The notes: a model not told the origin generated them from the sequence alone. Positions 6,956-35,723 are shown, numbered from the stretch's first letter. The stretch: 64,000 nucleotides of DNA from Haloferax marinisediminis (GCF_009674585.1 NZ_WKJP01000005.1:62001-126000); one strand, 5' to 3'. Numbers and translations: made by a program.

Positions 6956-8302
6956 TCAGTCCGCAGACTCACCCAGCGCCGCACGCATTGCGCCGAGAAG
7001 CCACGCACTCACATTCGGTGTTTCGCGGGCGGTGTACGCCACGAACGCGTACTGGCCGAGTGCATTCCGTGCCGAGCGATGCGTGTCGTCTTCGAGTGAC
7101 CGTTCGAGGTAGCGGTCACCCCGGTCGACTCGGTGTGCGACGTCGGTGAGGGCACGCCTCGTCACGTCGGGAGACGAGTGGTCCGAGCGCGCCGATTCGA
7201 GCGCTTCGAGCGCCGCGAGTTTCTCATCACGAACCTCGGCGGCAGATTGCAGTGTTCCGTACTCACCCCGTCGGACTGCTACTTTCGCGGCCTCGAAGGC
7301 TCGACGACTCCGTTCGGCGACGTGTGCTTCGAGGAGTGCGTTCGCAACTCGGTCACGACGGACTGCTTCTCGGATACCCTCGACGCCGTAATGCAAGTGG
7401 ATAAACGTCTCCACGAGGAGTTCCGCTGCCGGCGTATCTTCGATTGGTCGGTCGAAGTCGTCGAACAGCTGGCTGGTAGGTCCGTAGTCGTCGGGGTAGT
7501 CGTCTCTGCGTGCTTCGACGATATCTGAGAGCGACGAGGCAGTCTCCTCGAACACGTGGCCGAAGTCCTGCGGGTCAGAGAGGGACTGCCGATAGCGGTC
7601 GGCGAGGTGGCGGGCACTCTCCAACGACGCACGCGCGGACTCGACGGCGTCGAGCATCTCACCGACTCCGGGGGCACTCCCCCCGTGTCGGACGGGGTCG
7701 TCCGCGTTGTCGAGATAGCGCGAGGCCACGGCGAGGAAGTCTTCTATCTCGCCATGCACGACCAGTGCCGGACCGAGGTCGTCTCCGAAGTATCGATGTG
7801 CCTGTCTGAACGACTCGACCTCCTCGCGGAGTGAGTCACGTTCCGACACCACCTCGTCCTCAGTTATTTCGCCGACTGCGGCCTCGTAAGTTCCCTTGAC
7901 CATGGCCGCGTTTCCGCGGGCGTATCGGAGTGACCGCATCTGTTCGAACCGTGTCCGTTCTGTCGAGGCACGGTCGAGGGCTCGAATCGCATCGGCTCGT
8001 TCCTCGGCGTATATGTTTCGAACCGCTTCGTTCGGAACCGTCCGGGAACTCATCGACTCGGGGACCGAATCCAGTAACGTTCGCGCGCGAGAGCGACTCG
8101 TTTCGAGGAGCGTCGTTTCGATTGGTGCAGGAGTTCGCGCCGGGAACGCCGGAGACCCGAGTCGTTCGACTGCTCGAAGCGCCTCGGCGTCGAGGTCGGG
8201 ACGGTCGTCTCCGCGAGAGTCGAGTACGCCCGAACACCCGGCGAGAGACGTGATTCCAGCCGTTCCGACGAGAGCAAGCACGTCACGGCGTGTTCGTCGC
8301 AT
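6956..8302 (-). CDS. Secreted lipoprotein, mostly helical, function unknown
   Basis: The start was set to ATG 8302 (MRRTRRDVLALVGTAG), giving 448 residues with a Tat signal (RRTRRD) and lipobox SLAGC; the frame extending to 8452 lies inside the next gene and has no signal. The mature part is Glu/Arg/Ala-rich and probably all helical, with repeated ESAR-, ARAS- and LEAL-type stretches suggesting helical bundles. No recognised domain. It starts 2 bp after the stop of the upstream lipoprotein gene, so the two form an operon and may act together at the cell surface. Confidence 0.7.
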   Translation of the reverse strand: MRRTRRDVLALVGTAGITSLAGCSGVLDSRGDDRPDLDAEALRAVERLGSPAFPARTPAPIETTLLETSRSRARTLLDSVPESMSSRTVPNEAVRNIYAEERADAIRALDRASTERTRFEQMRSLRYARGNAAMVKGTYEAAVGEITEDEVVSERDSLREEVESFRQAHRYFGDDLGPALVVHGEIEDFLAVASRYLDNADDPVRHGGSAPGVGEMLDAVESARASLESARHLADRYRQSLSDPQDFGHVFEETASSLSDIVEARRDDYPDDYGPTSQLFDDFDRPIEDTPAAELLVETFIHLHYGVEGIREAVRRDRVANALLEAHVAERSRRAFEAAKVAVRRGEYGTLQSAAEVRDEKLAALEALESARSDHSSPDVTRRALTDVAHRVDRGDRYLERSLEDDTHRSARNALGQYAFVAYTARETPNVSAWLLGAMRAALGESAD

Positions 8303-22159: not shown

Positions 22160-22528
22160 ATGAGCGAGAAACTCGTCGAGTCACTCCCGCCGACGGCCGT
22201 TCCCGAGTCGTTCGTACGGGAACTCGAATCACAGGAGGCCGTCCAGCAGGCCATCGCCGTGCGCGGGTACAACCTCGAACGCGATGGCGAGACCATTCGG
22301 CAGGCGTATCAGCTCCTCGTGAACGTCCGTGGGAAGTACATCCTCGGGCTCCACCTCACGAACGGTGAGTGGCGCATCGTCTTCGACACACGCGGCCACC
22401 CCGAACTCGCACAGGAAGGTGCGCGAGCGGGCTACAAAGCAGTTCACGACGCGCTCTACGAGCGTGCGCCGTCCGACGCCGAAATCGACTTCGAGGCGAC
22501 GCCAGAGTTCTGGCACGCACCGCAGTAA
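22160..22528 (+). CDS. Hypothetical cytoplasmic protein
   Basis: A 122-residue protein from ATG 22160 (MSEKLVESLPPTAVPESF); the reading frame extends upstream to 21989 but that part overlaps the divergent VOC gene promoter. It is a compact alpha/beta protein with strands (YQLLVNVRGKYILGLHL, EWRIVFDTRGH) and no signal or membrane segment. It is followed by the SRPBCC gene 73 bp away. It is divergent from the VOC gene, with about 135 bp between starts, so both promoters must lie there. No recognised family. Confidence 0.65.
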   Translation: MSEKLVESLPPTAVPESFVRELESQEAVQQAIAVRGYNLERDGETIRQAYQLLVNVRGKYILGLHLTNGEWRIVFDTRGHPELAQEGARAGYKAVHDALYERAPSDAEIDFEATPEFWHAPQ

Positions 22529-22601
22529 GCCGAATGCTCACACCTCTTACATAACGCGTCTTCAGCGCGTGTTTATCTCTTTATTCGGCGTCTCTACCGT
22601 C

Positions 22602-23099
22602 ATGGACGAACTGACGACTTCCATTGACATCGACGCGCCCGCAGAGACAGTCTGGCAGGTACTCGTCGACTTCGAACGCTATCCCGAGTGGAACGACTAC
22701 ACACGAATCGATGGCGAGGCAGTCGCGGGAACGACCCTCGCTGTCGCACCCGGTCCACAGGCCGGTCGAATGCCCACGTTCAAACCGACAGTCCTCCGCG
22801 CCGACGATGGAGAACTTCGATGGCGTGGCCACCTGTTCGTTCGAGGGCTGTTCGACGGTGAACACCGATTCGTCGTCGAAGACCTCGGAGACGGTCGCTC
22901 CCGACTGACACAAGCAGAGACGTTCACCGGCATCCTCGTCTGGCCGATCAACCGCCTGTTCGGTGACGACACGGAACGGAACTTCCACGCAGTGAACCAG
23001 GCGCTGAAGACTCGCGCAGAGTCGATGCGTACGGCCGAACCCACCGTGGGCGCGACGACGACTGTCGAGAGGTCGGCCGATGAGACCGCGGACGTCTAA
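22602..23099 (+). CDS. SRPBCC (START-like) ligand-binding protein
   Basis: The ATG at 22602 (MDELTTSIDIDAPAETVW) gives 165 residues and the expected N-terminus. The polyketide-cyclase/START-like fold is clear from IDAPAETVWQVLVDFERYPEWN and from the LRADDGELRWRGHLFVRG and FVVEDLGDGRSRLTQAETF strands, which form the beta sheet around a hydrophobic cavity. The C-terminal helix (NFHAVNQALKTRAESM) closes it. Such proteins bind or modify lipophilic ligands; the ligand is unknown. No co-located enzyme suggests one. An Orc-box-like element lies 35 bp after its stop. Confidence 0.85.
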   Translation: MDELTTSIDIDAPAETVWQVLVDFERYPEWNDYTRIDGEAVAGTTLAVAPGPQAGRMPTFKPTVLRADDGELRWRGHLFVRGLFDGEHRFVVEDLGDGRSRLTQAETFTGILVWPINRLFGDDTERNFHAVNQALKTRAESMRTAEPTVGATTTVERSADETADV

Positions 23100-23134: not shown

Positions 23135-23158
23135 ACACCACCATGTCCGCAGTTAATT
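23135..23158 (+). repeat. Orc-box-like element, distal left copy (a)
   Basis: Plus-strand ACACCACCATGTCCGCAGTT followed by AATT, matching the consensus found in the origin 7-10 kb away. It lies between the SRPBCC gene and the first pilin gene, well outside the orc locus. Confidence 0.6.
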
Positions 23159-23411
23159 GGCGCACGTCGAGCGGGCTTTTCGCATTCTTGTCCGACTATC
23201 AACAGCAATTATAACATCGTCTGAAGTGCCGAATTCTGCAGTTATACGGCCGCTAACCGCATCTAAACCAGTAGAATAAACCCGTTATTTTACGTGAAAT
23301 TAAATATAGACAGAACATATGGATTGCTAACAGGAATCGGCACGAGACGCCGCTCGAAGTCCCGAATGTGGGGGCACGATGTGGGCTCCGAGACCGGTCC
23401 TGAATAGAACA
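23159..23411 (+). promoter_or_regulatory. Promoter/leader of first pilin gene
   Basis: A/T-rich sequence around 23280-23310 (TTATTTTACGTGAAATTAAA) resembles a BRE/TATA region. It lies about 100 bp before the pilin start, implying a 5-prime leader of roughly 80-90 nt, longer than for typical leaderless haloarchaeal genes. No further gene is visible. Confidence 0.4.
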
Positions 23412-23867
23412 ATGGATATCAAGAAATTCCTTACAGAATCACGCGCAGTCTCGCCGGTCATCGGCGTCATCCTCATGGTCGCTATCACCGTCATCCTCGC
23501 GGCCGTCATCGGTACCTTCGTGCTGGGTCTGGGCGACCAAGTCGGCGACACCGCACCGCAGGCGAGTTTCAGTTTCGACTACGACGACTCAGTTAGCCCG
23601 TCCACGGTTACCATCAGCCACGAGAGCGGTGACGCAATCGACGCATCGCTCCTCAAGGTGACGGTCGACGGAGTGGAAGTTACCGACACTAGTACTGGAT
23701 ACGAGTACGACGCTGATGGTGCCTTCGCTGGCAGTGTTGGCGCTGGTTCGAAAGTCGTCATCGAAAAAGCATCCGACGACTGGGACGGCGAAACCATCCG
23801 CATCGTCTGGACCGCTGAAAGTGGAAGCTCCTCGGCAACCCTCCAGAAATCCACCGCACCTGCATAA
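23412..23867 (+). CDS. pilA: Archaeal type IV pilin PilA-like (copy 1)
   Basis: The start at ATG 23412 ([18 protein letters not shown]) yields 151 residues; an upstream in-frame ATG at 23379 would displace the class III signal. The N-terminus is the archaeal pilin/DUF1628 H-domain, with charged leader, prepilin peptidase site before SRAVSP and hydrophobic helix [20 protein letters not shown]. This helix packs in the pilus core after PibD cleavage. The head is Ser/Thr/Asp-rich, ending in [18 protein letters not shown]. First of three tandem pilins sharing the same H-domain; probably adhesion pili. Confidence 0.92.
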
Positions 23868-24104
23868 ACCGCTGACAAACGCTCGGCCCCCCTCTCTTTC
23901 CGTTTTTCGACTCTCGAGCGAGTGCTCTCTTCACAGAGGCACAGAACTCTCGTCACAGTTTCCGATGTGTGTACATGCGTGTCAGCGGGATTTTATTACC
24001 TTGGAGAAAGTCAGATTATCTAATAGGTCCCGGACTCACGCGCTACGGCGATTTCGAGTATTTCGCGCTTCACCGCTGTCGGCCGGTTTACCTAGGAGAA
24101 ACCA

Positions 24105-24725
24105 ATGGATATCAAGAAATTCCTTACAGAATCACGCGCGGTGTCGCCGGTTATCGGCGTCATCCTCATGGTCGCGATTACGGTCATTCTCGCGGCAGTC
24201 ATCGGAACGTTCGTGCTCGGTCTCGGCGACCAAGTGAACGAAACCGCACCGCAGGCGAGTTTCGACTTCTCGCAAGAGACGTCGACGTTTACTGGTACCG
24301 ACGGTCCTGATGATGGTACTGACCCTGACGAACCAGACCTGATTACTGTAGAGATTACTCACGCCAGTGGGGATGCAATCGAAGAAGGTAGAATCAGTGT
24401 CACCGTGAACGGGCACACTGCCTACGGAATCAGCGAAGTTGCCAGCGATGACGACGATGCTGCGGCCCTCTGGTCGGGAACAGGAACCATCAGCGCTGGC
24501 TCGTCGGTCACCGTTGGACTCTACGATGACAAGGGTGACCAGGTGACCGATGGTGGTGCCATTTCCTACGATGTGTCGGCAACCGACCAAGAGAACAAAA
24601 TCAGTGGACCACGCGACGGCGATGACGGCGCTCACGCTCTCGCCTCGGGCGACATCATCCGCGTCGTCTGGACCTCTGAATCTGGTTCGACGTCGTCGAC
24701 CCTCGTGAAGTACACCGTCGCGTAA
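24105..24725 (+). CDS. pilA: Archaeal type IV pilin PilA-like (copy 2)
   Basis: A 206-residue protein with the same N-terminal 45 residues as copy 1 ([15 protein letters not shown], then the hydrophobic core). The head domain is longer by about 55 residues, very acidic (DDGTDPDEPD) and ends IRVVWTSESGSTSSTLVK. The DNA of the H-domain differs from copy 1 at wobble positions, so the identity is kept by selection at protein level. It has its own promoter region of 237 bp, including A/T-rich sequence near 23990-24025. The minor or major pilin role cannot be told. Confidence 0.92.
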   Translation: MDIKKFLTESRAVSPVIGVILMVAITVILAAVIGTFVLGLGDQVNETAPQASFDFSQETSTFTGTDGPDDGTDPDEPDLITVEITHASGDAIEEGRISVTVNGHTAYGISEVASDDDDAAALWSGTGTISAGSSVTVGLYDDKGDQVTDGGAISYDVSATDQENKISGPRDGDDGAHALASGDIIRVVWTSESGSTSSTLVKYTVA

Positions 24726-24980
24726 TCTCACACTACGAGACCAACTTCTTTGAAAATCGCTCCCTGTCGAGTTACAACGACTCGACGTGGGACGGTGCAA
24801 CTCCGAATCCTCAGCGTACGGAAGCAGACCAGCGTATGACAACTGAAATATAATTTATAATATGACTTTAAGTATTTCCTAAACGTATAGATATTCGTCA
24901 AGAACCGGTCATCCAGCGTCTGAAATAGGGAGTTTCAACTCTCGGAATAGGTCGTCTGTGCAACGGTTCTGGTGATTTCA

Positions 24981-25481
24981 ATGGACATCAAGAAATTCCT
25001 CACAGAGTCACGTGCAGTCTCGCCAGTCATCGGCGTCATCCTCATGGTCGCTATCACAGTCATCCTCGCCGCCGTCATCGGGACGTTCGTGTTGGGTCTG
25101 GGTGACCAAGTGAGCGAGACCTCGCCGCAGGCGAGCTTTAGCTTCGAGTACACGGACAACGGAGCATCAACAGAAGACACCTTCGTGGTCACTCACGAGT
25201 CAGGGACCGCAATCAAGGCTGGTCAACTCAAGCTGGTTTCGAGTGATGAATTCGCGGTGAGCTCTGGAGTAGCCGATGGTTCAGGTGCTGAAGAATACAC
25301 ATTCGATGCGTTCGATGGGATTACAGATGCCAACACCGAAATTAGCGCTGGCACTTCGGTAACAGCGTACAGTACAACCGGTGAGACTGACCTCGGGAAC
25401 CAAGACTTCCGCATCGTCTGGACTTCCGAGTCCGGTTCGTCGTCTGCGACCCTCCAGAAGTGGAGCGGTCCACGCGCATAA
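24981..25481 (+). CDS. pilA: Archaeal type IV pilin PilA-like (copy 3)
   Basis: Start set at ATG 24981 ([15 protein letters not shown]) to align with the other two copies; the ATG three codons earlier is possible. The 166-residue protein has the identical H-domain and a diverged head, ending [18 protein letters not shown]. Upstream sequence at 24840-24900 is strongly A/T-rich and contains TATA-like stretches about 120 bp before the start. With copies 1 and 2 it forms a pilin array with separate promoters, which would allow pilus composition to be varied. Secretion machinery genes (pilB/pilC) are not in this window. Confidence 0.92.
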   Translation: MDIKKFLTESRAVSPVIGVILMVAITVILAAVIGTFVLGLGDQVSETSPQASFSFEYTDNGASTEDTFVVTHESGTAIKAGQLKLVSSDEFAVSSGVADGSGAEEYTFDAFDGITDANTEISAGTSVTAYSTTGETDLGNQDFRIVWTSESGSSSATLQKWSGPRA

Positions 25482-28126: not shown

Positions 28127-28271
28127 TGGTAAACTACTGACGTGACTCGTCGGCCAACGGCAGACGGTGAACTGTTCACTGGAATCGGTGACCACCGGTG
28201 CTCACAACGTGTGTTGGCCAAGACGACCGCATCCGCGAACGTTCTTATTGGAAGCCGCAGAACCCGTGGGT

Positions 28272-28748
28272 ATGCATCCCACGGCGCAGACGTTCGCTGA
28301 CCAGATTCAGGAAGACTACGACTTCGAGGCGGTCGTTCAGGAGTTTCCCGAGGGAACGAAGACGGCAGCCGACGCCGCGGCGGCAATTGGATGTGACGTC
28401 GCCCAAATCGTCAAGAGCATCGTGATGCGCGTCGGCGACGAGACGGTCATCGTCCTCACGAGCGGAGCGAACCGGGTCGACGAAACCAAGTTGGCGGCCG
28501 AATTCGACGTCGACGCGGACTCGGTCCGGAGTGCGAATGCGTCAGAAGTAAAAGACGCCACGGGATGGAGCATCGGCGGCGTTCCGCCGACCTGCCACAC
28601 GACAGACTGTCCTGTCCTCGCGGACCCGACGTTCGACTCTTTCGGCGAGATCTGGGCCGCAGCGGGGACGCCAGAGACGGTGTTTCGACTCACCCCAGAT
28701 GACTTGCAGATGCTGTCGAATCCCCGCGTCGTCGACGTGTTCGAGTGA
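28272..28748 (+). CDS. YbaK/ProX-type aminoacyl-tRNA deacylase
   Basis: A 158-residue protein from ATG 28272 (MHPTAQTFADQIQEDYDF). The fold is the YbaK/EbsC editing domain: TAADAAAAIGCDVAQIVKSI with the invariant lysine, then DETVIVLTSGANRVDETK, and VRSANASEVKDATGWSIGGVPP, ending in CPVLADPTF and FRLTPDDL. YbaK-family proteins clear misacylated Cys- or Ala-tRNA or related tRNA charging errors. Length is normal. It lies 145 bp after the aminotransferase gene, so operon membership is doubtful. It is followed by an Orc-box-like element. Confidence 0.88.
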   Translation: MHPTAQTFADQIQEDYDFEAVVQEFPEGTKTAADAAAAIGCDVAQIVKSIVMRVGDETVIVLTSGANRVDETKLAAEFDVDADSVRSANASEVKDATGWSIGGVPPTCHTTDCPVLADPTFDSFGEIWAAAGTPETVFRLTPDDLQMLSNPRVVDVFE

Positions 28749-28767: not shown

Positions 28768-28789
28768 ACACCACCATGTCCGCTGTTCT
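28768..28789 (+). repeat. Orc-box-like element, distal copy (b)
   Basis: Plus-strand ACACCACCATGTCCGCTGTT followed by CT, a perfect match to the consensus seen at the origin. It lies 20 bp past the YbaK stop, about 2 kb left of the main cluster. Confidence 0.7.
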
Positions 28790-30372: not shown

Positions 30373-30657
30373 CTATTGGATGTGGCCTTCGCGTCGGAGC
30401 TGGTCCGCGTCTTCGCCAGTGTAGCGCCATTCGATGTTGGCTTTCTCGTCCTGCCAGTCCCACGGTTCCACGAGGACGACGTCGCCCTCGTTGATCCAGG
30501 TGCGGTACTTCATGCGGCCGGGGATTCGGCCCATTCGGTTCTTACCGTCTTCGCAGCGGATTCGTACGTGGTTACCACCGTTGTGCTCAGTGACGACCGC
30601 GAACAGCTCGTTATCGTTGGGCATTCGAAGATTTCGGCGCCCTTGATTTTCGCTCAC
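30373..30657 (-). CDS. Translation initiation factor aIF1A
   Basis: Start set to GTG 30657, giving [20 protein letters not shown], which matches the standard aIF1A N-terminus; the ATG at 30690 adds eleven residues inside the leader. The 94-residue protein is the S1/OB-fold initiation factor: [20 protein letters not shown], then [19 protein letters not shown] and [19 protein letters not shown]. It stabilises the small subunit pre-initiation complex and scanning. A second copy elsewhere in a haloarchaeal genome is common, so this may be a paralogue. It borders the Orc-box cluster, so the origin lies directly upstream of its promoter. Confidence 0.93.
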
Positions 30658-30751
30658 GTACGTATTCAGAGGCCAAGACGGATAACTCATAGGATGTACA
30701 AGTTACCACGGCACACGTGAGGACATCACACGAGCATTTCCGAGGGTACGT

Positions 30752-30774
30752 ACACCACGATGTCCGCAGTAATT
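30752..30774 (+). repeat. Orc-box-like element (c)
   Basis: Plus strand, ACACCACGATGTCCGCAGTA then ATT. Nearest box to the aIF1A promoter. Confidence 0.7.
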
Positions 30775-30919
30775 CGGAATCCGACCGCCCGTCTGATGAA
30801 CCAAATATGACGATATACTCTAGAGAATCTGGATTCACGGTTCGGAGGATGTACACCGAGGTGCTGAATTCGAAGCGTAACTTGTCTGAGGAAGGTTCCT
30901 ACTCGACTGGTCCAACCCA

Positions 30920-30941
30920 ACACCACTGTGTCCGCTGTTCT
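30920..30941 (+). repeat. Orc-box-like element (d)
   Basis: Plus strand, ACACCACTGTGTCCGCTGTT then CT; one mismatch to consensus before TGTCC. Confidence 0.7.
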
Positions 30942-31000
30942 CGCATCTCCGCCACCGTACTCTAGTCTTTTCCGGTCACTTCTGGACTCGAATCGAAGAG

Positions 31001-31022
31001 ATTACTCCGGACATAGTGGTGT
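31001..31022 (-). repeat. Orc-box-like element (e)
   Basis: Minus strand, ACACCACTATGTCCGGAGTA then AT; the C after CCG is changed to G. Confidence 0.65.
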
Positions 31023-31148
31023 TGGAACTGAAGCCGTCGAGAGAGATCCCATCGACGACGAAGCGAGTCACTAGGGTGAAATACTGAACTCGATGTGAAT
31101 GATTTGCGGGTGTGTCGCACCTCGACTCGCGAAGAGCATTCGGTTCGT

Positions 31149-31170
31149 ACACCAGTATGTCCGCAGTAAT
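31149..31170 (+). repeat. Orc-box-like element (f)
   Basis: Plus strand, ACACCAGTATGTCCGCAGTA then AT; 40 bp past the orc stop codon. Confidence 0.65.
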
Positions 31171-31211
31171 CGACCGATTTAAACCTCGTACAGGAGACTC
31201 AGTCGTCTGCG

Positions 31212-32462
31212 CTACTGTTCGACGAAGTCGTCGAGTGTACTCGCTCTGTCCGAGTCGAGGTACGGTTCGACAGTCTCGTGGACCCCGACGAGGTCGATCG
31301 TGTCGCGCATCGCCGAAACGATGAGACCGACGTCCATGTCGAGGGCATACTCACGGTACGTTCCCCCGCGTCGACCTTCGTTGCGCTCGGTGACCGAGAC
31401 GATACCGAGCATCGCGAGTTCACTCAAGTGGTCACGCATCCGACGAGGGACGAGTGGGTCACGGTTCGCGAGTTCAGCGAATCGCGTATACCGGGGTCGG
31501 ACGTCGCGAGACCGAATCGGCGTCTCGCCCTCTAACTCGAGAGTCAACAGCGAATACAGTACGAGATGACCATGCTCGGTGAGGCCGTTGATTCCTTCTT
31601 TGATTCGCCCACGTTCGAGCGCTCGTCGGCCTCGTTTGACGTGTTCTTCGGTGATACAATCAGTGTCGTCGTCGCGCGCGAGGTCACCCGCCTTCATCAA
31701 GAGGTCGATGGATTGTCGCGCGTCACCAGCGTCTTTCGCACCGTAGGCCGCACAGAGTGGAATTACCTCGTCGGACAGCACGCTCTCTCGGAACGCCACT
31801 TCGGCACGTTGTTCGAGAATCGCCTGTAGATTCTTCGCGTTGTACGCGGGGAAGTGAATCTCTTGTTCACACAGCGAGCTTTTGACTTTCGGCGAGAGGT
31901 CGTCCCGGAACGAAAAGTCGTTCGAGATGCCGATGAGACCGACTTTTGCCTCTGACAAGTTTCCATTCGCGCGTGCGCGCGGGAGTTGATAGAGAATACT
32001 GTCGTCGTTGACGTGGTCGATCTCGTCGAGGACGACGATAATAGACCCGCCGCACTTGTCGAGTTCTTGCCACAGCATCTCGTAGACCGACCCAAGGGGG
32101 TATCCCGTGGTGCTAATCTGGTTGGATTCCGACCTGAACTCGTTGACGAGACGGGTCGCAATCTGGTACGAGCTCGTGAGTCCATCACAGTTCAAGAAGA
32201 TGACGGTGAGGTGGATGTCGTCGTACCGACTTGCATCCTCGCGGAGGTGACTGAGTAAGTAACGCGACGCTGCTGTCTTCCCGACGCCAGTTTTCCCGTA
32301 CAGGAAGATGTTGTTTGGCTGTTCACCGTTGATTACCGGTTGAAGAGCCGCCTGAAACGTCCGAAGTTCCTCGTCACGCCCCACGAGTTCCTCGGGCTGG
32401 TAATCCTCACGGAGGGCATCCCGGTCCCGATAGATTTCGGTATCTCGCTCGAAGAGGGGCAT
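31212..32462 (-). CDS. orc: Orc1/Cdc6 replication initiator protein
   Basis: A 416-residue AAA+ ATPase. Walker A is YGKTGVGKTAASRYLL, Walker B SIIVVLDEIDHV with the acidic DEID, and sensor 1 follows in KVGLIGISNDF. The segment RVGLLEQR-like helices (AILEQRAEVAFRESVL) and ARQSIDLLMKAGDLA correspond to the archaeal Orc lid and ISM region. Residues 280-410 form the winged helix that reads Orc boxes (HLVLYSLLTLELEGE). It binds origin boxes, unwinds the A/T-rich element and recruits MCM. Its own promoter is overlaid by boxes, so it probably represses itself. It is surrounded on both sides by the box family described here. Confidence 0.95.
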   Translation of the reverse strand: MPLFERDTEIYRDRDALREDYQPEELVGRDEELRTFQAALQPVINGEQPNNIFLYGKTGVGKTAASRYLLSHLREDASRYDDIHLTVIFLNCDGLTSSYQIATRLVNEFRSESNQISTTGYPLGSVYEMLWQELDKCGGSIIVVLDEIDHVNDDSILYQLPRARANGNLSEAKVGLIGISNDFSFRDDLSPKVKSSLCEQEIHFPAYNAKNLQAILEQRAEVAFRESVLSDEVIPLCAAYGAKDAGDARQSIDLLMKAGDLARDDDTDCITEEHVKRGRRALERGRIKEGINGLTEHGHLVLYSLLTLELEGETPIRSRDVRPRYTRFAELANRDPLVPRRMRDHLSELAMLGIVSVTERNEGRRGGTYREYALDMDVGLIVSAMRDTIDLVGVHETVEPYLDSDRASTLDDFVEQ

Positions 32463-32491
32463 ATCTCAGTATTCGGCCACTTCTCTGATAA

Positions 32492-32520
32492 AACCACCGC
32501 GTCCGCAGTGTCCGCTGTTC
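32492..32520 (+). repeat. Doubled Orc-box-like element (g) in orc promoter
   Basis: Two interleaved cores: AACCACCGCGTCCGCAGT (32492-32509) and GCAGTGTCCGCTGTTC (32505-32520), sharing five bases. They lie 30-58 bp before the orc start codon, between that codon and the TATA-like element. Confidence 0.6.
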
Positions 32521-32524
32521 CACG

Positions 32525-32534
32525 ATTTTATATA
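32525..32534 (-). promoter_or_regulatory. TATA-like element of orc gene
   Basis: On the minus strand the sequence TATATAAAAT lies 63-72 bp before the orc start codon. The doubled box (g) falls between it and the gene, so Orc binding there would block transcription: an autoregulatory arrangement. The distance implies a leader of about 40 nt. Confidence 0.45.
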
Positions 32535-32553
32535 GTCTGGCTCGGACACACCC

Positions 32554-32575
32554 CCTCCACTTTGTCCGCTGTTCT
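32554..32575 (+). repeat. Orc-box-like element (h)
   Basis: Plus strand, the stretch CCTCCACTTTGTCCGCTGTT then CT. The TGTCCGCTGTTCT half is perfect and the CAC-rich half is degenerate. It faces the A/T-rich region. Confidence 0.6.
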
Positions 32576-32597
32576 CGTAATCGAAGGTCTCCGGTGA

Positions 32598-32730
32598 AAC
32601 ATGTGTGAGTATAGAGTAGAAGAAAGATTTATCTTAATACGGATTAAACCAAATCCGTAATAGAAATATATCAGACGGTAAGTAGACTAGTAGTATCTAT
32701 TTTCCCACAACTCCCGGGTGTATTTTACAT
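32598..32730. other. Candidate DNA unwinding element with inverted repeat
   Basis: By my count about two thirds of bases 32641-32700 are A or T, in a genome segment that is otherwise well above 55 percent GC. Within it is a perfect inverted repeat, ACGGATT-AAACCA-AATCCGT, at 32639-32658. Box h on the left and boxes i/j on the right point inward in opposite orientation. This is the most likely site of initial melting. Confidence 0.6.
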
Positions 32731-32771
32731 CAATCGACTCAACTCTGGAAGGGGGTTTCCCTTTCACCCCG

Positions 32772-32793
32772 AGAACAGCGGACATAGTGGTGT
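32772..32793 (-). repeat. Orc-box-like element (i)
   Basis: Minus strand, ACACCACTATGTCCGCTGTT then CT; full match to consensus. Confidence 0.75.
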
Positions 32794-32888
32794 GAGTGTT
32801 CACAGAATCCGACCGTTCTCTCGTCTCACTGACCGACAGTATTTGCCGTCCTCACACACATCGCCGTCATTACCCGCGGAACCGTCCG

Positions 32889-32910
32889 AGAACAGCGGAC
32901 ATGGTGGTGT
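32889..32910 (-). repeat. Orc-box-like element (j)
   Basis: Minus strand, ACACCACCATGTCCGCTGTT then CT; full match, the same sequence as distal copy (b). Confidence 0.75.
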
Positions 32911-33230
32911 CCTCGGTACCGAGTCACGAGCAAGTTGAACCCAATTACCATAGTAGACCACGTCGTCTCGCCATCTCTTCGTGAACTGTTGCGGACTTGA
33001 CGATGTTCTCCGGGTTCCTAACCTCCGCTGTCCGGACTGTCTTGCCTCTATTCGACGAGCCCGCGAACTTCGAGTAATCCTTCGTCTCCCAGACGATCAC
33101 TCGAGTATACACGTTGCACGCTCTCGGATTCAGTTGCCTGTCTGACTACGCTCTTCTCGTTGTACTATCGAGGGAGAGTGACTACATTCTCACCCCGCCA
33201 AATTCCTACCGCTGAACAGAGGCACAGCCA

Positions 33231-33252
33231 ATTACTCCGGACGTGGTGGTGT
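33231..33252 (-). repeat. Orc-box-like element (k)
   Basis: Minus strand, ACACCACCACGTCCGGAGTA then AT; two substitutions in the TGTCCGC core, with the same CCGGAGTAAT end as copy (e). Confidence 0.6.
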
Positions 33253-33346
33253 TCGAGTTCTCACTCTTCTCGGTGCACTCGTACCTCGTTCCATGGACGG
33301 TCGTCCTCGAGCACCCCAGCACAGTCCACCGATTTACGTGGAACCA

Positions 33347-33368
33347 ACACCACGATGTCCGCTGTTTG
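33347..33368 (+). repeat. Orc-box-like element (l)
   Basis: Plus strand, ACACCACGATGTCCGCTGTT then TG; full match to the first 20 bases. Confidence 0.75.
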
Positions 33369-33598: not shown

Positions 33599-34291
33599 TT
33601 ACTCGTCTCGCGTTCGAACGATCTCGTCGGCAACTTCGTCAGGGTACGACGCCGCGATTCGGACGAGTGCATCGTGAAACTCACGCCCAGTCATATTTCG
33701 AATGTCGAACTCTCGACGGAGCAACGACTCGACTTCGAACTCGGCGTCGTCCATCCGGTCGAGTGTCTCGGTTCGGATGTAGATACTCTTCGCAGTTGTC
33801 GCCTCGAACTCGAACGCAGGGGCGCTTTTGTCGTCCTCCGAACGCTCTCCATCGTCTGCTGAGGTACTTTCGAGTTCTTCTGAACCCGCTTTCGCGCCGG
33901 CTGGACCCTCCTCGCCGTCCGATGTCTCCTCGACTGATTTTCCTACTGACTCGTCGTCTCGTGATTCCGTTTTCGTTTCCGTTTTCGTTTCCGACTCTGA
34001 CTCTGACGCTTCGGCATCGGTCGTCGATTCGTCGGCGTCCGAACGGTGTGCTGCCTCGACATCGGCGGCCGTCGACGTGTCTTTACTCGTCTCACCGGCA
34101 TCGGTTTCGTCGTTCTGCGCCGCTGCACTCGTAGCTCCCTCCGTCTCGGCACTACGTTCCCTTCCGTTTTGTTCGGGGTCGAGTTCGCGACTCTCCGAAC
34201 CTTCGGTCTCGTTACTCTCGTCTTCTGTTCCGTCGTTTCCGTCGGACTCCATCGCTTCGCCCAGGCCGGCGAATCGATTTTCCTTAGGCAT
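33599..34291 (-). CDS. Acidic ParA-partner protein, candidate centromere-binding protein
   Basis: Start set at ATG 34291 (MPKENRFAGLGEAMESDG), giving 230 residues and an 8-bp overlap with the parA stop. After an N-terminal motif (KENRFAGLGEAM) come about 130 residues of Glu/Asp/Ser/Thr/Ala low complexity. They are followed by a folded C-terminal domain of about 70 residues (FEATTAKSIYIRTETLDRMD, then FDIRNMTGREFHDALVRIAA). The C-terminal strand-helix pattern resembles small DNA-binding partition partners but shows no ParB nuclease-like domain. By position it is the partner of ParA; binding to DNA is inference. Confidence 0.7.
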   Translation of the reverse strand: MPKENRFAGLGEAMESDGNDGTEDESNETEGSESRELDPEQNGRERSAETEGATSAAAQNDETDAGETSKDTSTAADVEAAHRSDADESTTDAEASESESETKTETKTESRDDESVGKSVEETSDGEEGPAGAKAGSEELESTSADDGERSEDDKSAPAFEFEATTAKSIYIRTETLDRMDDAEFEVESLLRREFDIRNMTGREFHDALVRIAASYPDEVADEIVRTRDE

Positions 34292-35108
34292 CTTCCGGGC
34301 CTCCCCGCTCGACGACGGCAGCAAGTTCGTCTAATCGGTCGAGCATGTCGTTCGATGGGTCGTACTCACGCAGTGTTTTCCCGTCGCGCCACGCTCGGCT
34401 GAACGCGATTCGGTGACGAATTCCTGGACCTTTGGACTCTGGGTCGTCGAACAGTTCCGACCGGGCGAACTGTGGGATGTACTTTTCGAACGGAGACTCC
34501 TCGAGGTCTCGGATGATTCGGCGCTCTTCGTTGTTGCCGGTGAGGTCGTTCGGGACGATGGCCAGTATCTCGAGGTCGACTTCACGACGAATCGGTCCGA
34601 TCTGTTGTTCAAACATCCGCTCGAACCCACTCACACTGGGTTCACTCATGAGGAGCGGAACCACCACGTTTCCAGTTCCGATGAGTGCCGCGTCGGAAAG
34701 CGGTCCGAGACTCGGGGGGGAGTCGATGACGATGTAGTCGTACTCGTCCTCCAAGAGTGGGTCGACGATTCGGCGTCGAACCCAGAGGACACCGAACGTC
34801 GAGTTCCGAACACGGTCTTCGATGTCGTCGAGGTCGACGTGGGCGGGCAACACGTCGAAACTCTCTCGCGCGTGAATCGTCTCGCGAACGTCGACCGGGT
34901 CGTCGTCTGTCAGGACGTCACCGATGTTCGGGTCGGCCGACTCGTATGCGTCTTTCAACCCGACGCCTTCGGTTGCGTTTCCTTGCTGGTCGAGGTCGAC
35001 GAGCAGGACATCATTGTCTCTGGCAGCGAGGGCGTCTGCGAGATTGATCGCGACCGTCGTCTTTCCGACACCTCCTTTTTGCAAGGAGACGCTTACTGCT
35101 CGTGACAT
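34284..35108 (-). CDS. parA: ParA/Soj-family partition ATPase
   Basis: A 274-residue protein. It has the deviant Walker A box KGGVGKTTVAINLADAL with the signature lysine, a DLDQQGNATEGVGL switch I region, Walker B VIDSPPSLGPLSDAALIG and later EILAIVPNDLTGNN. These are diagnostic of ParA/Soj/Cdc-type ATPases that move or position DNA. The start at 35108 (MSRAVSVSLQKGG) is standard. The partner gene overlaps its 3-prime end by 8 bp. Upstream lies a long A/T-rich region with 9-bp periodicity, the likely centromere or operator. Together with orc it marks a replicon-maintenance module. Confidence 0.93.
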   Translation of the reverse strand: MSRAVSVSLQKGGVGKTTVAINLADALAARDNDVLLVDLDQQGNATEGVGLKDAYESADPNIGDVLTDDDPVDVRETIHARESFDVLPAHVDLDDIEDRVRNSTFGVLWVRRRIVDPLLEDEYDYIVIDSPPSLGPLSDAALIGTGNVVVPLLMSEPSVSGFERMFEQQIGPIRREVDLEILAIVPNDLTGNNEERRIIRDLEESPFEKYIPQFARSELFDDPESKGPGIRHRIAFSRAWRDGKTLREYDPSNDMLDRLDELAAVVERGGPEDA

Positions 35109-35701: not shown

Positions 35702-35723
35702 GATACTGCGGACAATGTGGTGT
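35702..35723 (-). repeat. Orc-box-like element (m) beyond parA
   Basis: Minus strand, ACACCACATTGTCCGCAGTA then TC. It lies between the two periodic tracts, 2.3 kb to the right of box (l). Confidence 0.6.

Follow-up and report, generated by a model that had tools for sequence, protein, structure and literature searches.

What does a family of near-identical boxes around an orc gene on a haloarchaeal plasmid do, and does such a locus share anything with origins that use other initiators? We analysed a stretch of 64,000 nucleotides from Haloferax marinisediminis (the window; C5:62001-126000), where contig C5 (GCF_009674585.1, NZ_WKJP01000005.1) is a plasmid of 249,596 bp in a genome of 3.49 Mb. 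Its orc gene encodes an initiator of the Orc1/Cdc6 family and stands among copies of one box, beside an A/T-rich stretch. Our reading, to which we give a probability of about 0.88, is that the locus is an Orc-dependent replication origin of the 250-kb plasmid, that it belongs to the family of ori-pHV4, oriP2-cdc6M and oriP-cdc6K, and that it includes an element shared with other origins in its duplex-unwinding region (DUE). For this copy the assignment draws on orthology. Origins of this kind are already known and have been shown by experiment to be active, and the reading of Orc and boxes as an origin is supported but likewise known in kind; the new point to report is the shared DUE element.

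Boxes surround the orc gene and an A/T-rich stretch

The orc gene (31212..32462, minus strand) encodes a complete Orc1/Cdc6 protein of 416 aa with AAA+, lid and winged-helix domains (Pfam Cdc6_lid, Cdc6_C and AAA). The nearest solved structures are those of Aeropyrum and Sulfolobus Orc1 (PDB 2v1u and 2qby).

We scanned the 64-kb window with the query CACCACNATGTCCGCWGT, allowing up to 3 mismatches and using 100 shuffles as control. The scan returned 14 matches against 0.36 expected, and 0 of the 100 shuffles reached 14. The match at 7847 has 3 mismatches, looks like chance and was dropped. The remaining 13 copies stand at 23136+, 28769+, 30753+, 30921+, 31004-, 31150+, 32492+, 32555+, 32775-, 32892-, 33234-, 33348+ and 35705-. 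Ten of them lie within 30753-33365, in line with an earlier, sequence-only reading of the same DNA, which had counted at least 13 copies and placed ten between 30752 and 33368. From the aligned copies we obtained the extended core ACACCACnnTGTCCGCWGT. Two subtypes, GCTGTTC and GCAGTAA, can be told apart, with the W position tracking the bases that follow it (chi-square p ~1e-19, on pooled, related sites).

Genome-wide scatter of the box, which would speak against an origin, is not what we found: at up to 2 mismatches every match in the 3.49-Mb genome is on C5, and 12 of these 13 C5 matches lie within 12.6 kb of one another, around orc. The inverted arrangement described by the sequence-only reading is also there. 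Boxes 32492+ and 32555+ stand to the left of the A/T-rich stretch, and those at 32775..32792, 32892..32909 and 33234..33251, all on the minus strand, to its right; the last of these is an A-type box (GGAGTAATT), and a further copy follows at 33348..33365 (plus). The first box to the right is on the minus strand in 39 of 42 loci. The A/T-rich stretch, the predicted DUE (32595..32740), reaches 71% AT per 100 bp, which places it among the top 148 of 249,497 plasmid windows, and its counterparts in orthologues are AT-rich as well.

The locus belongs to a family of active plasmid origins

The Orc is 93-95% identical to plasmid orthologues in Haloferax and 73% identical to the sole Orc of Haloarcula hispanica pHH400 (cdc6K). 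Its match on Haloferax mediterranei pHM500 is 94% identical and must be Cdc6M, because the other Orc of pHM500 is only 49% identical to the Orc of the window and Cdc6M is 98% identical to Haloferax volcanii Orc3 (PMC4595724). An orthologue also opens the pHV4-like plasmid pHGLR2 of H. gibbonsii at 152-1399, and H. volcanii orc3, which is assigned to ori-pHV4, opens pHV4 at 152-1402. The predicted orthology to H. volcanii Orc3 rests on pHGLR2 being pHV4-like, on this match in gene position and on the 98% identity of orc3 and cdc6M. Published orc3 deletion primers fall at the expected places in H. alexandrinus, but with 2-7 mismatches (partly engineered restriction sites), and were not used as proof.

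By these comparisons, the Orc matches, as a predicted orthologue, Orc3 of H. volcanii (ori-pHV4), Cdc6M of H. mediterranei (the active pHM500 origin) and Cdc6K of H. hispanica (the essential oriP). The function of this origin family is established, because orthologous origins have been studied by autonomously replicating sequence (ARS) assays, deletion and marker-frequency work. In marker-frequency profiles of pHM500 the only peak is at oriP2-cdc6M, which is also active as an ARS; on pHH400, oriP-cdc6K is likewise an active ARS, and it proved impossible to delete.

Over the family members searched, Orc identity runs from 73 to 95%. The copies in H. mediterranei, H. hispanica and H. marismortui have the same box and the same layout of inverted boxes and DUE as the window, whereas the outer boxes differ in number and place and the Haloferax flanks are inverted between lineages. 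When the window is set beside loci L019-L022 and L050-L078, orc with both box clusters is seen to change orientation against the outer flanks from one Haloferax lineage to another, with parA to the left or to the right; inversions with an origin at their centre would give this pattern.

The box follows one Orc clade

A search of other haloarchaea for the same orc with the same box, which the sequence-only reading had proposed, found the box and its layout at about 40 orthologous orc loci in four haloarchaeal families (genera Haloferax, Halobellus, Halogeometricum, Halobaculum, Salarchaeum, Halarchaeum, Natrinema, Haloarcula and others). At the other orc loci of the own genome no box was found, including that of a paralogue which is 52% identical and has a different repeat of its own. 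Several of these loci carry other repeats, for example TACTGGAAATGGTGG at C6 and CCCTCGCGTTTGTAA at C4, and in a clade of Orcs at 60% identity (L080-L083) the repeat has changed to ACACTGGACACAGTGG.

These patterns support a box that is specific to this Orc clade and would form an initiator-box pair of its own. The same proposal in the sequence-only reading thus stands, in that the box follows the Orc clade and is absent at paralogues, but it does not describe a new kind of pair, because Wu et al. 2012 already described the linkage, with each haloarchaeal Orc family having its own origin recognition box (ORB). A difference from the classical oriC1-type ORB had also been claimed. It holds for the core, which is AGCGGACA here, and for most copies, which end in GTGGTGT and lack the long G-string. 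The canonical frame of a GGA-type core, a spacer and GTGG is nevertheless kept, and the box at 32546-32574 (copy 32555) has the G-string, as do its orthologues.

An oriented element in the DUE is shared by origins with different initiators

An alignment of the A/T-rich region from 46 loci brought out an element distinct from the ORBs, TTTAT followed after 20-21 bp by TCCGTA, as the most constrained DUE sequence. In the window it reads GATTTAT-N21-TCCGTA (32626..32659, plus strand) and points away from orc. It is kept in about 40 orthologous origins, persists in the 60%-identity clade where the ORB has changed, and is shared with other Orc families, including oriC1.

A perfect inverted repeat in this stretch had been given weight by the sequence-only reading. 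The repeat exists (TACGGATT at 32638-32645 and AATCCGTA at 32652-32659), but only its right arm, which is part of the element, is conserved in orthologues; the left arm is not, and we rejected the palindrome as a functional inverted repeat. A structure-conserved hairpin to the right of TCCGTA was rejected for the window (p = 0.68), but it is strong in some lineages (Halobellus; p < 0.05 in 12 of 45 loci) and stays a lead. An inverted repeat of differing sequence stands just right of TCCGTA in loci L023, L058, L060-L063, L065, L069, L074 and L076, and not in the window.

The same element, TTTTATATTGGTGGATAACAAGTTAGTCCGTAGGATA, is found upstream of the C6 orc of the own genome, and the other orc of pHM500 has one like it. 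Searching the own genome for TTTAN{20,21}GTCCGTA gave 1 site, at the C6 origin; the C5 copy carries ATCCGTA. With a matrix trained without the own sites, the two top hits in ~390 kb of own sequence were the C6 and C5 DUEs.

We then searched 119 Haloferacaceae genomes without bias towards orc, followed by an Orc hidden Markov model, and counted an orc when it lay within 2.5 kb; the resulting tables include a few loci added by another search, and one own-genome site is counted twice (L102/L105). Of 28 sites of the form TTTA-N18/19-TAGTCCGTA, 27 had an orc next to them, as did all 7 GGTCCGTAG sites. An orc was adjacent to none of the 8 GGTCCGTA sites, which lack the final G, and to 2 of the 24 sites with other flanks. 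Moving TTTA to a 14-bp spacer left 1 site only. The orcs beside the element best match orc1 of the own genome (oriC1 type, 68-88%), the C5 and C6 orcs, and a C4-like type (~35%).

Other results set limits to this sharing. The own oriC1 has only a variant, TTTTAT-N21-ACCGTAG, of rank 12 by position weight matrix, which sits between inverted ORBs at the AT peak, and the element is missing at the origin-like loci of four other orc genes of the own genome; it is therefore not universal. Order-wide, 14 of 24 strict matches lie beside an orc (1.5-kb flanks). Many of the element-bearing loci are also related by descent, so that the counts are not independent. A scan of viral contigs was uninformative, the element being scattered, among the matches listed, over unrelated viral contigs.

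In open-access papers we found no earlier description of the element; a partial one is possible in Norais 2007 and Coker 2009 (Halobacterium oriC1), which were outside that search. The DUE element TTTAT-N20/21-TCCGTA is apparently new to the literature.

Factor site or promoter

Its conservation and its specificity for orc neighbourhoods mark the element as origin-specific. Acting independently of the initiator, it would serve in the middle of the DUE either as the site of a general origin factor or as an origin-specific promoter, and we rate the two models about equal.

The first model draws on the ucm motif of Sulfolobus, the site of UBP. Origins that use different initiators have this motif in common; it is placed in the DUE, with inverted ORBs on either side, and the origins depend on it for their activity. 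The haloarchaeal element is likewise a short DUE motif between inverted ORBs and common to origins with different initiators. Unlike ucm, it is bipartite and oriented, and we do not claim homology; ubp has been reported only from Desulfurococcales and Sulfolobales. We tentatively propose that haloarchaeal origins share an oriented mid-DUE element of the TTTAT-N20/21-TAGTCCGTA type, independent of Orc and ORB, and that a dedicated haloarchaeal factor binds it and acts after Orc binding, for instance in MCM activation or separation, as an independently arisen counterpart of the ucm system. This general proposal is one that we hold as somewhat short of an even chance.

The promoter model, which we regard as a comparable contender, takes TTTAT as a TATA box with a BRE-like GAAAG (BRE, transcription factor B recognition element) before it and TCCGTA over the start site. 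A non-coding transcript running away from orc would then open or prime the origin, as at some bacterial and phage origins. The distances fit: the first T of TTTA and the A of CCGTA are 30-31 nt apart, and in the own genome presumed leaderless genes have their ATG 29-32 nt from TTTA, with peaks at 29 and 32 nt (small counts). In origins of the C5 and C6 types TTTAT follows an A-rich sequence, and most copies of the element read away from orc. Nevertheless, there is neither a conserved downstream gene nor an Rfam RNA (no Rfam match was found near the origin), and oriC1-type copies have a G-rich rather than BRE-like sequence before TTTAT. Moreover, TAGTCCGTA with such spacing almost never occurs away from orc genes in Haloferacaceae, and because it is almost confined to these neighbourhoods the TCCGTA part is not a general initiator.

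Other roles for the locus

The cumulative AT skew of C5 has its maximum at C5:90.6 kb and the purine skew at 92.4 kb, with the origin at 94.5 kb. These extremes agree with a start of replication at the locus; the GC skew of the plasmid has no peak at the origin. The claim of an Orc1/Cdc6 origin in the sequence-only reading was thus upheld on the full set of Orc domains, on proven origins at orthologous loci that share the box and its layout, and on skew maxima within 2-4 kb.

Dormant origins with intact ORBs are known in H. mediterranei, and the origin could be genuine but dormant in this strain, like oriP1-cdc6L on pHM500. We consider this improbable, since the orc is the only one found on C5, its orthologue is active on pHM500 and essential on pHH400, and the skew extremes adjoin the locus. 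It is slightly less probable still that partition of the plasmid or control of transcription, and not initiation, is the main task of the boxes: parA is nearby, distal boxes lie in promoters and intergenic regions, and one of them (35705..35722, minus strand) in 12 Haloferax loci keeps its intergenic place ~600 bp upstream of parA, but the box follows the orc clade and not parA, which is missing within the stretch shown at several orthologous loci and ~7 kb or more away at others.

An Orc-dependent origin thus remains our preferred reading of the locus. Beside it, a ParA-family ATPase (34284..35108, minus strand; Pfam) is paired, in the window and in Haloferax orthologues, with an acidic protein (33599..34324, minus strand) that has no Pfam match and is a putative partition partner. 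The long intergenic stretch upstream of parA that holds the distal box is a possible partition site.

The orc promoter and the outer boxes

Upstream of the ATG, the orc strand reads GAACAGCGGACAAAGTGGAGGGGGTGTGT, a TATA-like 8-mer, GAACAGCGGACACTGCGGACGCGGTGGTTTTAT, ~25 nt and ATG. The first of these is a full ORB with the haloarchaeal G-string (32546..32574, minus strand); it contains the box at 32555-32572 (plus), and 43 of 46 loci have a box at this position. The copy nearer to orc, a weak box at 32492..32509 (plus), consists of tandem 9-bp half-boxes that run directly into TTTTAT, the probable TATA box of orc (32493-32488, minus strand), at leaderless-promoter distance. In 37 of 46 loci a box is kept there, 25-50 bp from the orc ATG and in the same orientation. 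Between the two boxes lies a second TATA-like element (32526..32534, minus strand), where an AT-rich 8-mer is kept in orthologues. The pair encloses TATA-like sequences at the promoter of orc, as it does in nearly all loci, which suggests that Orc may repress its own gene. Helical phasing of the two boxes was considered and rejected: their spacing shifts by added 9-bp half-box units and not by 10.5-bp steps.

Directly downstream of orc, four boxes (30753+, 30921+, 31004- and 31150+) form a cluster at 30753..31167; orthologues have 0-10 boxes there, mostly 2-6. At H. hispanica oriC2D, a downstream cluster of 11 ORBs holds oriC2 in check, probably through titration of Cdc6E. The cluster here is placed likewise and is likely initiator-titrating, with 4 boxes against 11. 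An eIF-1A translation initiation factor gene (30373-30690, minus strand) also stands beside the origin on the plasmid, as it does in Haloferax relatives.

Single distal boxes keep their intergenic places in several Haloferax species, although their flanks are only 27-42% identical. As distal boxes were found by sequence, it is their conserved position and not their own identity that counts as evidence. Besides the box upstream of parA, one at 28769..28786 (plus) lies just downstream of a YbaK/tRNA-editing gene (28167-28748), with the same place in loci L019, L053 and L068. Another, found by the box scan at 23136..23153 (plus), lies between the coding frames 22329-23099 and 23379-23867 (type IV pilin). 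Near this box is a cluster of three or more type IV pilin genes (23379-25481).

Taken as in its orthologues, the locus would work as follows. Orc would bind the family-specific boxes that flank the stretch at 32595-32740 and, by the known archaeal pathway, would direct MCM loading there. As the two boxes nearest to orc overlap with its promoter, Orc bound to them would probably repress orc. By the precedent of oriC2D, titration of the initiator is the probable role of the downstream cluster, and perhaps also of the single boxes as far as 9 kb away.

Implications

Haloarchaeal origins have been described as diverse pairs of replicators and initiators with only an A/T-rich stretch in common. The element may help to predict origins, as 27 of the 28 sequence-only sites in Haloferacaceae lie beside an orc. 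The 2025 paper on Sulfolobus ucm raises the question of a comparable factor in other lineages of archaea. The element is defined in a group with genetically tractable species (Haloferax volcanii, H. mediterranei and Haloarcula hispanica), in which this question is directly testable. That one element recurs at origins whose initiators differ points to a step, following recognition of the origin, that these origins share.

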